In this document: one piece after another, positions 9,653-12,749 of the stretch
Layout: every line of letters starts with the position of its first letter
Position numbering within the stretch: the first letter of the stretch is position 1
Origin: Eubacteriaceae bacterium
GTDB lineage: Bacteria > Bacillota > Clostridia > Oscillospirales > Acutalibacteraceae
Direction of reading: 5' to 3'
Length of the DNA: 64,000 nt
Assembly (NCBI GenBank): GCA_021770095.1
Contig: JAETRQ010000001.1
Coordinates: 1 to 64,000 of the forward strand
Notes under the pieces: model-generated
What the model was told of the DNA's origin: nothing
Databases searched by the model: none
What the model saw: only the letters and a program-made list of their open reading frames with translations
Translations under genes and position numbers: made by a program

Positions 9653-9915
9653 ATAATAACAACTCCTTAAAATAAAAAAACTTTCATCTCATATGAGACG
9701 AAAGTAATAATTCCGTGGTACCACTCAAATTGCATTATCAAAAAATAATGCCACTCCTATCTTTAACGCAGAAATACGGATTGAACTACTTGATTTCACC
9801 CAATCGGCTCGAAAACTACCTTCATTTGCAATTCATATACCTTTACACCAAACAGGTACTCTCTGAAAAGAAATAACAAACTACTCCTTTTTGTCACAGC
9901 CATTAACATATTACA
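9653..9915 (-). promoter_or_regulatory. T-box leader of valS
   Basis: This is a tRNA-sensing leader RNA. Visible on the minus strand are AGAGAG and GGTG stem-I landmarks (about 9850-9880), the T-box sequence GAGTGGTACCACGG (9713-9726) and a terminator hairpin ACTTTCGTCTC / GAGATGAAAGT followed by T7 (9673-9705). The UGGU of the antiterminator bulge would pair with a tRNA ending ACCA, fitting an A discriminator. Candidate specifier codons are GTA (9817-9819) or the adjacent GTT (9814-9816), both valine. Which of the two is used cannot be settled by eye. Confidence 0.92.
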
Positions 9916-9947: not shown

Positions 9948-9978
9948 GGCAATAAATATTCAAAAATGCAAATGAATA

Positions 9979-10008
9979 AAATAAAAAACTCCCGACATAA
10001 GTCAGGAG
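9979..10008 (-). terminator. Terminator of the structured RNA
   Basis: On the minus strand CTCCTGAC and GTCGGGAG pair (one G-T pair) around TTAT and are followed by TTTTTTATTTT. It lies upstream of the valS promoter, so it closes the RNA transcript rather than belonging to valS. Confidence 0.85.
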
Positions 10009-10468
10009 CCCATTTATTATTTAATTTTAAATTTTAATTAGTGCATTGGACTAACCTCTCACAATTATTTTCTTAATACAATGAATTCCCTTAACATGGA
10101 ACCACCTCGAAAATTAAATGTTATGATAAAAATAAGTTAGTACATTGGATTTCACCTATAATTTTATTTTGTTATGGTTTAACCACAAATTATCTGCAGG
10201 TCGATAATCAATTGAATAATCTATATAAAAGTTATTAAGTTGTTACCGCACTCGCTGTAATTTCCAATCCTGCTCATAACTAATTTATTACTTTTAAAGT
10301 TTGTACCCGTCAATAATTCCGTTTTACTGCTGCCGGTACATATTCCGTTATATTATTGGTTTACAGTACGAGCGCTTGTCTGACCTGGTTCAAGATCCAT
10401 TGGACAAGCCTCCTTTCATATACTCGAACAAATCCTTTAACTGCTTCCTAAAGGTATCTCCTTTGTTC
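9979..10468 (-). ncRNA. Candidate structured non-coding RNA of unknown class
   Basis: About 490 bases with no ORF above 80 codons on either strand that looks coding, yet with a near-consensus promoter at one end and a strong terminator at the other. Hairpins begin exactly where transcription should start. P1 pairs 10462-10468 with 10426-10432, enclosing 10449-10454/10434-10439. P2 pairs 10403-10408 with 10375-10380, enclosing 10393-10397/10382-10386. P3 is long: 10369-10374/10249-10254, 10361-10366/10255-10260 and 10355-10359/10264-10268, broken only by small bulges. P2 and P3 abut, which would allow coaxial stacking. The first 220 bases carry nine GGA triplets. The AT-rich remainder (10010-10248) has several Shine-Dalgarno-like sites before very short frames. 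Possible identities include a raiA-motif-like RNA or a protein-sequestering RNA; I cannot assign a class by eye. Confidence 0.65.
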
Positions 10469-10474
10469 ATCTAT

Positions 10475-10503
10475 ATAATAGCACAGGATTTATCTTTTGT
10501 CAA
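10475..10503 (-). promoter_or_regulatory. Promoter of the structured RNA
   Basis: Minus strand TTGACA (10498-10503), 17-bp spacer, TATTAT (10475-10480), with TG extended -10. The predicted start near 10468 coincides with the first base of hairpin P1. Confidence 0.8.
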
Positions 10504-10573
10504 TAGTTTTTTTGCACATTTTATTACTAATTTTGTATAATTTTAACAACCAATAATTTACATACAAATACTA

Positions 10574-10602
10574 TTGACGAAAGCAACACAAAAATATATA
10601 AT
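10574..10602 (+). promoter_or_regulatory. Promoter of the DUF1292 gene
   Basis: TTGACG (10574-10579), 17-bp spacer, TATAAT (10597-10602). It lies about 35 bases before the DUF1292 start and is back to back with the structured-RNA promoter. Confidence 0.7.
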
Positions 10603-10635
10603 AATATCACCGAGTTAGAAAGGGGTGTGAATAAG

Positions 10636-10953
10636 ATGGCTGATCATGAAGAATACTATGAACCGGATATCCTCAGTGTTTCTGACGAAAACGGTAATGA
10701 AATTCTCTTTGAACTTCTTGAAAGATATGAAACTGATGAAGATGTTTATGTAGCAATCACCCGTTATTATGAAACTGATGAAGAAATTATTGACGGTGAT
10801 TATGAAGTAATCATCCTTAAAGTTGAAAACGATAATGGTGAAGAATACCTTGCTGAAATTGAAGATGAATTGGAATATGAGCAAGTATCTGATATATTGA
10901 TGGCAAAGGTTGAAGAAAAGTTTGAAGTGGAATACTTTGAACCTGAACAATAA
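10636..10953 (+). CDS. DUF1292 family protein (YrzB-like)
   Basis: A small acidic cytoplasmic protein of 105 residues. It has the DUF1292 pattern: ILSVSDENGNEILFELLERYE near the start, a central beta-rich YYETDEEIIDGDYEVIILKVEND and a C-terminal helix EQVSDILMAKVEEKFEVEYFEPE. The biochemical function of the family is unknown. In many Bacillota it accompanies ruvX and an RNA-polymerase-associated small gene, neither of which is adjacent here. The AAAGGGGTG ribosome site favours the ATG at 10636 over the GTG nine bases upstream. The gene is followed immediately by the probable 6S RNA, which may be cut from the same transcript because I see no convincing promoter between them. Confidence 0.85.
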   Translation: MADHEEYYEPDILSVSDENGNEILFELLERYETDEDVYVAITRYYETDEEIIDGDYEVIILKVENDNGEEYLAEIEDELEYEQVSDILMAKVEEKFEVEYFEPEQ

Positions 10954-10964
10954 AACAAAATAAG

Positions 10965-11160
10965 TTTATCATCTGCCCTTCTCGATAATCTTAGGCTTAA
11001 GTAACCCGAACAAGATTTTTAAGGGATTCATCTTCCATGAAACAGGAATGCAGACCTCCCTGTTCAGGACGTTGGGAGCACAAAGTGATTGGAGTGAAAC
11101 CCACCTGCCAATGAAGCAGGTTATTCTCAGTCTGAGACGGCTGGGCGGATATAATAGATA
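10965..11160 (+). ncRNA. ssrS: Probable 6S RNA
   Basis: 6S RNA binds the vegetative RNA polymerase holoenzyme by mimicking an open promoter. The fold can be drawn as the expected rod. The closing stem is ATCTGCCC (10971-10978) with GGGCGGAT (11143-11150), then UCUC/GAGA (10980-10983/11134-11137). A large central bubble follows. Its 3' side holds the small hairpin ACCTGC-CAATGAA-GCAGGT (11103-11121). Beyond it lies an apical rod from GGG/CCC and UUCA/UGAA pairs up to CTCCC/GGGAG around 11056-11078. Size, bubble position and the bubble hairpin all fit 6S. No ORF is present and a terminator follows. Ends are approximate. Confidence 0.75.
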
Positions 11161-11196: not shown

Positions 11197-12633
11197 TTAA
11201 CTTGCACTTCTCTTTATCATTGCATAATCTTTTGCATTTACATAACCGTCATAATCAATATCGGGATAATTATTATAAGAATTTCCGTTGGGCTTTGACA
11301 TATAGTTGTTAAAATATTCAAGTTTGCTGTATGTAACAGGAGTTGCAAGATTTTGATAGTACTGAACTGTCAGTTCATTGTTGGTCGTAGTCATACCGAT
11401 GATATAATCATTTGAACCGCTGTCAATAACGCAAATATCGCCATTAAAGGCAACAGAACAAATCTTCCCTGTCGCACTTGTCAGATAAAATCTGTTATCC
11501 AGAAAGTCAAGTCTGCCCATATAATCTGTATTACTGATTTGATGTTCTGTTCCTGCTGAGTCAACTGCTGATGACGTTATCGTCAGTTTAGGAAGATTAA
11601 AAGCGGATTTGGACAAATTACTTTCATTTCCCTTTAAATCTCTTTTGATTAAATAACTGCGTGATGCCGGCTGAACATAATAGTAATCACCATTATGTAC
11701 AATAATCTGAGAGAAAACTTTATTCCAAAAATAATTATCATATGATGTAGAGTTAAAAGTCGGATTTCCATATGTCTCTCCGCCGAAATGATACATCCCT
11801 GCTTCGGAAGAAAAATAACTGTCACTCTTAAGGAAATTCGTATGACCGTAATTACCGTAAATATTAACATTATCATACTTTATATCATCATATGTTAAAT
11901 CAGCATTATACCATTTATCATCAATTTTTACACTGTTCCACGCATGAGCCATATCTTTTGAACTGACAAAACCGGATTCTATCCCAGCCTGTTTAAGGAG
12001 ATAGGAATATGCAAGTGTATATCCTGCACAAACGACTCTGCCATTATAGAAAAAGCCGTAAGCACTATGTGAGATTTCACCGTCTTCACTATATGTTGCA
12101 GCATTGCATATGTAGTCATGCAGAACAAGAGCTTTCTGCTCATCTGTCATTGAATCATCAACTTTTGCCAGTGCTTTGTCTGCACCTTTATTGAATATGT
12201 CTCTCGCCTGTGTCAAATCATCTTTGCTGACAGTATATCTTGGACGAGCATATGCAGTAGTCCCGTCATTATAGTAAGCATAGGAGACACTGCTTGATAC
12301 AAAAAACAAATCAGGGTTATCATTGATTACTTTTGAAAAAGCAGAAGAGAATTCACTAACAGGAATATTGAAATTATCAACCCAAATTTCTTCTTCCTGA
12401 TTCAGTAAAGCATTATACATATACTGGCTGAAGCTCTGGTAATTATCAATTGAAAAAAGACTGATTAAACTCTTTTTATAATATTCCTTATCATTATATT
12501 CAATGTCATAATTACCATCCTGCAAAAGTGCAACAGTTGTACTCTTAACATTAAGCATTCCGCCATATACAAACATCGGAATAACCATCAATATCAGGGA
12601 CATAATCAAGGCTACCAGTCTTTTGCTTTTCAT
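11197..12633 (-). CDS. Secreted transglutaminase-like protein with a dockerin-like tail
   Basis: A 478-residue exported protein. An N-terminal hydrophobic signal segment (residues about 5-24) is followed by an uncharacterised region. A transglutaminase-like (papain-fold) core follows at about 160-260 with the triad Cys202 (RVVCAGYT), His230 (MAHAWNSV) and Asp245 (YNADLTYDD). Such proteins usually act as cysteine peptidases or amidases outside the cell rather than as cross-linkers. Residues about 280-450 look like a beta-propeller or substrate-binding part. The end, DIDYDGYVNAKDYAMIKR, matches one half of a type I dockerin (calcium loop plus helix). GGTGAG before the ATG at 12633 selects this start over one 51 bases upstream. 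Activity and target are not deducible. Confidence 0.8.
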   Translation of the reverse strand: MKSKRLVALIMSLILMVIPMFVYGGMLNVKSTTVALLQDGNYDIEYNDKEYYKKSLISLFSIDNYQSFSQYMYNALLNQEEEIWVDNFNIPVSEFSSAFSKVINDNPDLFFVSSSVSYAYYNDGTTAYARPRYTVSKDDLTQARDIFNKGADKALAKVDDSMTDEQKALVLHDYICNAATYSEDGEISHSAYGFFYNGRVVCAGYTLAYSYLLKQAGIESGFVSSKDMAHAWNSVKIDDKWYNADLTYDDIKYDNVNIYGNYGHTNFLKSDSYFSSEAGMYHFGGETYGNPTFNSTSYDNYFWNKVFSQIIVHNGDYYYVQPASRSYLIKRDLKGNESNLSKSAFNLPKLTITSSAVDSAGTEHQISNTDYMGRLDFLDNRFYLTSATGKICSVAFNGDICVIDSGSNDYIIGMTTTNNELTVQYYQNLATPVTYSKLEYFNNYMSKPNGNSYNNYPDIDYDGYVNAKDYAMIKRSAS

Positions 12634-12749
12634 AAAATACTCACCACCTAATTCTATTATAATCAGGAATATAAAAAATTTCAATACCCCAACTTACAAT
12701 TAAAAGGACAACATAAAAAGCCACTGAAATCAGTGGCTTTTTATAATCA

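Follow-up and report, generated by a model that had tools for sequence, protein, structure and literature searches.

About 490 bases enclosed by a strong promoter and a terminator, and holding no recognizable protein-coding gene, raise the question of what kind of RNA is made there and what it may do for the cell. The locus lies on the minus strand of the window, by which we mean the whole stretch analyzed here (64,000 nt; positions 1 to 64,000 of contig JAETRQ010000001.1, assembly GCA_021770095.1, a Eubacteriaceae bacterium of the family Acutalibacteraceae). A preliminary description had read it as a structured RNA without a coding gene, either new or belonging to a known large class such as the raiA motif. 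The structured nature of the RNA is upheld by covariation and conservation, whereas the absence of a coding gene holds only in part, given its very short open reading frames (ORFs) with conserved start signals.

The RNA locus and its fold

The promoter is near-consensus (11 of 12 matches) and the terminator has an 11-pair stem followed by a T-run, so that the bracketing first described holds; hairpin P1 likewise begins where transcription was said to start, 7 bases past the -10 box, where +1 is expected (Table 1). A promoter of the same form was found by script in 23 of 23 genus sequences, own included, with the A-tract judged by eye, and a terminator-like hairpin in 22 of the 23, that of L005 being doubtful. 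In its own genome the RNA is a single copy by blastn. Judged from sequence, it is a structured, pseudoknotted RNA that stands alone between a promoter and a terminator of its own.

Table 1. Features of the RNA locus and of the adjoining divergent genes, in window coordinates
Feature	Position	Strand	Description
Promoter	10475..10518	minus	A-tract, TTGACA (10503-10498), 17 nt, TG-extended TATTAT ending at 10475
Discrete RNA	10468-9983	minus	about 490 bases, between its own promoter and terminator
P1 hairpin, 5' end	10426..10468	minus	GAACAAA/UUUGUUC, 10468-10462 with 10432-10426
ORF1 with SD	10353..10416	minus	SD AAAGGAGG; ATG at 10400; ORF 10400-10353; start context GUCCAAUG; product MDLEPGQTSARTVNQ*
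P2 hairpin	10374..10409	minus	GCUUGUC/GACAAGC; ORF1 start codon in loop
Core closed by P3	10248..10375	minus	model R1
P3	10375-10369, 10366-10361 / 10260-10248	minus	GCGCUCG + CUGUAA with UUACAG + CGAGUGC
P4	10339-10335/10307-10303	minus	inside P3-closed core
P5	10329-10324/10316-10311	minus	inside P3-closed core
P6	10300-10297/10293-10290	minus	inside P3-closed core; ends counted by hand
P7	10351-10347/10280-10276	minus	inside P3-closed core
Kissing pseudoknot	10188..10273	minus	GCAGG 10273-10269 with CCUGC 10200-10196
P9 hairpin	10209-10188	minus	loop holds CCUGC of the pseudoknot
Minigene 1	10137..10157	minus	AGGUGAAAUCCA-AUG UAC UAA (MY*)
10-codon ORF	10065..10108	minus	MLREFIVLRK*; SD GAGGUGG-UUCC-AUG
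Minigene 2	10038..10058	minus	GAGGUUAGUCCA-AUG CAC UAA (MH*)
Terminator	9983..10011	minus	11-pair stem 10011-9986 and T-run
DUF1292 gene	10627..10953	plus	divergent from RNA; conserved neighbor; PF06949, 51.5 bits; tblastn
6S RNA	10967..11155	plus	directly after DUF1292; RF00013, 31.6 bits, E 7e-5, sub-threshold

Membership in a known class was not borne out. At gathering thresholds, cmscan of 9960-10640 against Rfam 15 gave no match to any family within the RNA, and at E <= 10 it gave four matches of at most 21 bits each, all far under their own gathering scores; no known family therefore names the RNA, raiA included, and OLE, ROOL, GOLLD, 6S and tmRNA equally gave no curated-threshold covariance-model match in it. 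That comFC and raiA do not adjoin the locus had been remarked before and agrees with Pfam assignments of six nearby genes (valS, DUF1292, transglutaminase-like, Mur-ligase-type, HATPase, and sigma factor). We know of no minigene array in a raiA motif RNA. The raiA motif RNA ModT (RF03072) is also a stand-alone pseudoknotted RNA of Bacillota, and PMC11706538 describes it as very abundant in growing cells and gives comFC and raiA as neighbors in 74% and 66% of cases, unlike the window RNA, which has neither a model match nor these neighbors.

The RNA was considered as a leader of valS and rejected, since valS owns a T-box and, within flanks of about 1.5 kb, was seen downstream of the RNA at 8 of 30 loci, in 6 of 23 genomes. 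The T-box leader (9691-9906, minus strand, 141.5 bits) is downstream of the RNA terminator. Nor does a cis-acting leader in general fit the locus, where the terminator ends the RNA and no conserved same-strand gene lies directly beyond. tmRNA resembles it in having an ORF beside a pseudoknot, and this reading too was dropped, because the RNA has no RF00023 match and the genome has a separate tmRNA (RF00023, 166.6 bits).

Of 60 related genomes searched by blastn, 23, among them its own, have the RNA, and all 23 belong to one genus; analyses of 23 sequences refer to these genomes, with second loci from the same genome omitted. From these 23 sequences a covariance model of the core, R1, was built (149 positions), and it matches 60 of 80 same-genus genomes, with one match each, and 44 of the 51 genus genomes with a completeness of 90% or more and a contamination of 5% or less. 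The 38 RNAs counted below are those of the 60 matching genomes whose loci were read, the other 22 genomes being outside the count.

Fold energy by itself is unimpressive (z -1.57), with 4 of 100 shuffles folding equally well; the structure is established by covariation in relatives. The long imperfect stem that had been described as closing the third domain is present as P3 (arms 10375-10361 and 10260-10248). When the 23 sequences were aligned with MAFFT, pairing held in 83.2% of cells, both sides had changed in 21 of 34 pairs, and the covariation score was 0.340 vs 0.166 when shuffled and at most 0.108 in slid versions. In 39 sequences (38 of the genus and L075), the core helices score 0.408 vs 0.180 shuffled and at most 0.087 slid, with 25 of 32 pairs doubly changed, in an alignment that was fitted to R1 and hence leans towards the model. 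The signal comes mostly from P3a, P4, P5, and P6; P7 hardly varies and therefore says little on covariation. P3b pairs in just 55% of cells and seems to change register from subgroup to subgroup.

Outside R1 lies the kissing interaction, whose five pairs are all present in 37 of 38 RNAs vs 34 of 760 shuffles, the remaining RNA keeping 4 of 5, and which covaries as ACAGG/CCUGU (twice), GCAGA/UCUGC (once), and GUCGG/CCGAC (once). P1 occurs in relatives with two arm types, with arms GAACUUAA/UUAAGUUC. P2, whose 3' arm overlaps P3 by 2 nt, can pair over 6 bp or more around the ORF1 start in 34 of 38 RNAs; because a helix of this size is also found in 42% of shuffles, its support is mainly the visible arm changes (GCUUGUC/GACAAGC, UUUGUC/GACAAA, GGUCAAAUU/AAUUUGGCC, GGCUGAA/UUCAGCC). 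In L013, L014, and L015 the stretch leading from the 5' end to the ORF1 SD exceeds its usual length by roughly 230-350 bases, with a shared inserted domain in the P1 region, for which no believable Rfam match was obtained. An antisense pairing of UCCAAU with UUGGA of the core was rejected, as by eye it is not conserved across the genus.

Short reading frames and their start signals

No feature of the RNA is shared more widely than ORF1 together with the start-stop minigenes. By sequence, the latter match the definition of a minigene (SD, start codon, 1-5 sense codons, and stop), and one to four SD-led units are present in all 38 genus RNAs; in the window RNA they sit in the 3' half, reaching the terminator. 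Between core and terminator the 38 RNAs hold 167 AUGs, 95 with an SD and 72 without, as counted for AUG only, with the SD recognized by a simple pattern and with neither of the filters given below. Two-codon ORFs begin at 59 of the 95 SD-led AUGs vs 5 of the 72 others; the remaining SD-led ORFs have 3 codons (17), 5 codons (5), 10 codons (10) or other lengths (4), whereas lengths at AUGs lacking an SD are widely spread. CC stands immediately 5' of the AUG in 87 of 95 vs 1 of 72, and CCRAUG occurs 81 times vs 1.33 in mononucleotide shuffles (maximum 5 in 200).

When only units of up to 7 codons with CC ahead of the start were retained, 60 of the 83 have exactly 2 codons, at an expected stop probability of 0.092 per codon. 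Stops are UAA (62), UAG (11), and UGA (4), with 6 not printed, and the second codon is mostly NNC (UAC 44, GGC 16, CAC 10), the residue varying among Y, G, H, F, D, E, C, N, Q, and R. GUG replaces AUG at CCA/CCG-GUG in L107 and L108, and a start codon is missing from two units in L091 and from one in the RNA of genome G034 (locus L023). A hairpin loop around every minigene start (UUAGU/ACUAA) was discarded, being visible by eye in some units and not in all.

The context of these starts is rare among genes, as UCCR precedes none and UCC one of 54 script-inferred gene starts in the window. Across the whole genome, GAGG-N(3-6)-WCCRAUG occurs 12 times vs once for the reversed pattern: two occurrences are in the RNA, one belongs to an EF-Tu gene and one to a GAPDH gene (Pfam), three open frames of 257-422 codons and one a frame of 36, and the rest look internal or due to chance; two of the remaining matches are isolated short ORFs elsewhere in the genome (MACI* and MC*). 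The minigene start context is, by this comparison of sequences, a normal but rare start signal. At L110 and L117, in the window's genome, the GAPDH and EF-Tu genes start in the rare context UUCCAAUG, common to the minigenes. Genes for EF-Tu and GAPDH are usually very highly expressed.

The stretch from SD to AUG of the minigenes is able to pair with 16S rRNA past CCUCC. For an assumed 16S tail sequence, no 16S having been found in the assemblies searched, the extension yields a mean gain of -4.36 kcal/mol in minigenes vs -1.16 at gene starts, and the total SD-to-AUG pairing is -11.20 vs -9.58 kcal/mol; in the genus, the core SD pairing alone is weaker in the minigenes than in ordinary genes (-6.84 vs -8.42 kcal/mol). 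Extended start-proximal SD pairing to 16S has been observed in S. aureus by cryo-EM, according to PMC13009471. That AUG and GUG swap, that stops swap, and that the bias to short ORFs is confined to SD-led AUGs together make it a strong inference that ribosomes use the start-stop sites.

ORF1, SD-led and 10-19 codons long, stands at P2 in 38 of 38 genus RNAs. Its pN/pS, counted with G029 excluded and indel codons removed first, is 0.56-0.70 in frame vs 0.67-0.80 in one other frame for the loop codons, and 0.81 in frame vs 0.61 in that same other frame for codons 2-11. A peptide function of ORF1 is weakly supported by these ratios. Codon-like conservation replacing stem covariation, which the preliminary description had said would count against its reading, is not what the relatives display, covariation being strong and peptide-level constraint weak. 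Besides ORF1, an ORF similar to the basic one of 10 codons in the window (10-12 codons, AUG or UUG start) is found in 15 of 38 RNAs; of the 10 copies in the filtered count, 7 fit M-[LIF]-R-x-F-I-V-x-x-K, and 5 further copies diverge more.

Distribution and genomic neighborhood

Under stricter filters R1 matches 4 of 394 genomes across the order, the window's own among them, and none of the 4 lies outside the genus; in 41 sampled genomes of the family it reaches one further genus (L075, 77 bits); a match of 22 bits in the same sample (L076) was doubtful and set aside. Similar arrays extend to two or more further families of this order. Exact scans gave L072 (record titled Oscillospiraceae), L074 (titled Ruminiclostridium), L069, L071, and L073 (titled Eubacteriales/Lachnospiraceae), L107 and L108 (both family f7), and L109 (family f26, the same region as L074), and a survey of 6S loci added L091 (another genus of f26) and L097 (another genus of the window's family, with an ORF1 start only). 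R1 does not match the DNA of these arrays, and a direct search of L091, L097, L107, L108, and L109 likewise found nothing.

Little besides the array is present in L107, where three units (MG*, MY*, and MF*, the last with GUG) and a terminator-like hairpin fit within about 350 bases with almost no core. Six units each occur in L108 (2-11 codons) and L072 (2-7 codons), and L091 has an ORF1 (MDSEKTARYHAGFSIVR*), three minigenes, and the two units that lack a start codon. The RNAs of L069, L071, and L073 bear MY* and MDGI[FV]* units, and L069 has in addition an SD-like GGAGGACGGACCACC with no start codon. The exact pattern is rarely matched: 3 of the 394 genomes from the order have it, and none of the 398 of a phylum sample; it misses even the window's own units. 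A unit at L089, inside an apparent glutamine synthetase gene, was dropped. A viral origin was rejected after a pattern scan of viral contigs gave 0 matches; a second pattern gave one match, in a phage-like contig, where the reading frame is longer and by eye unrelated.

The divergent neighbors of the RNA are a DUF1292 gene and 6S RNA, the latter scoring 31.6 bits vs a gathering score of 46.4, so that annotation by gathering score misses it. The order RNA, DUF1292, 6S recurs in L072 (a weak 6S match of 28.6 bits, E 0.044), L074/L109, L091, L075, L097, and the genus members L013-L015, to which the 6S scans of the genus beyond the window extended. Arrays with no R1 core diverge from DUF1292-6S at three loci, with DUF1292 of L091 confirmed by Pfam. 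DUF1292 lies near 6S in 26 of 30 6S loci sampled from the order (tblastn, E <= 0.01), and one of these 26 (L091) has an array by pattern; among 11 of the 26 that were read by eye, L097 alone has an ORF1-type start and the other 10 have different divergent content, for instance an rRNA operon start or an apparent infC. No 6S was found in the 3 kb of L107 and of L108, nor in the fetched DNA of L069, L071, and L073. On these genomic arrangements, the link between the RNA and 6S is recurrent and not universal. On the far side of 6S, a transglutaminase-like protein (11197-12684, minus strand) has a C-terminal dockerin match below threshold (20.8 bits, cut-off 22.9), which may hint at a system of the cellulosome or amylosome type.

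Possible modes of action

The reading that we prefer is that this strongly promoted, pseudoknotted RNA works by engaging ribosomes and that its array acts in trans, to which we would give not quite an even chance. Ribosomes would initiate at ORF1 and the minigenes, form one or few peptide bonds, and leave the minigenes by termination or peptidyl-tRNA drop-off; each RNA would thus hold or cycle several ribosomes in initiation. Translation of ORF1 would unfold P2 together with the 5' arm of P3, so that it and core folding should be mutually exclusive. Acting in trans, the array might then drain or sense free ribosomes and initiator tRNA, and the RNA might stand on the translation side of growth control, near a 6S RNA that acts on RNA polymerase. 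A pure ribosome sink would not need ORFs as long as ORF1 and the one of 10 codons, which counts against this reading.

The bar minigenes of lambda are one example of minigenes in leaders. SD-led ORFs of 2-6 codons that occupy ribosomes are further described for axe-txe, LEE4, and ycbK in PMC8708949, where minigenes supplied in trans had no effect and action was in cis. Such leaders have one or two minigenes ahead of a protein gene, whereas window-type RNAs have one to four units (six in L072 and L108), their own terminator, and no downstream cistron. Docking of ribosomes at minigenes and SDs could shield the AU-rich 3' part from nucleases while the core, as the working part, binds some protein or RNA. 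In PMC8708949, occupancy of the axe-txe minigene is proposed to guard the mRNA from nuclease, and protection is reported as shown for LEE4 and RNase E. Cis action is favored because the published minigenes act in cis and because some units lack a start codon, so that SD binding without initiation may suffice; the window's units, moreover, occupy the 3' half as far as the terminator. Trans action is favored because arrays persist as cores change to the point of not matching, L107 being nearly all array, and protection by SD binding alone would need no stop straight after codon 2. We regard protection in cis as possible but unlikely. Even if the minigenes work in cis only, this is a new structured RNA with good support.

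RNAIII and SgrS, dual-function small RNAs, have one ORF each. The window RNA is like them in being structured and also bearing short ORFs, and unlike them in having several, mostly of two codons. A polycistronic mRNA for regulatory or signal micro-peptides (ORF1, the basic ORF of 10-12 codons, and the dipeptides) would be in keeping with the presence of ORF1 in every RNA and with the consensus of the 10-codon ORF; codons 2-11 of ORF1, with a higher pN/pS in frame than in the other frame, and the variable second residue of the minigenes speak against such a peptide source, which appears improbable to us. At the other extreme, the start and stop signals might be by-products or target-pairing motifs of a plain structured regulatory RNA that makes no use of ribosomes. 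Strong covariation of the core suits this view, and UCCRAUG could pair with a CAUYGGA target; the view does not account for the interchange of stop codons, for swaps of AUG to GUG that keep a similar SD spacing, or for a short-ORF bias confined to SD-led AUGs, and we consider it very improbable.

Returning to ribosome engagement in trans, bacteria titrate RNA polymerase with 6S RNA, and an RNA doing likewise for ribosomes by means of two-codon ORF arrays is not known to us. The window RNA would resemble 6S RNA in its adjoining locus and as a stand-alone RNA possibly titrating a core machine, and differ in being a separate gene with no 6S match, whose target would be the ribosome. Among the titles and abstract openings returned by searches of open-access literature, no such minigene-array RNA is described; the main text of PMC8040213 names neither Ruminococcus, DUF1292, 6S RNA, pseudoknot, nor Oscillospir, and its supplementary motif lists may hold an unnamed entry. 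It is a tentative and rather doubtful proposal that the minigene-array RNA is a new kind of RNA, in which a conserved string of very strong start-stop sites sequesters or senses initiating ribosomes, and which in several lineages stands divergent from DUF1292-6S. If this is true, a polymerase-side and a ribosome-side regulator would be neighbors. If the sites are used, the RNA would offer a natural system for dipeptidyl-tRNA drop-off and for the counting of free ribosomes, and it would raise the question of why a start context of the EF-Tu and GAPDH type is spent on ORFs with almost no product.
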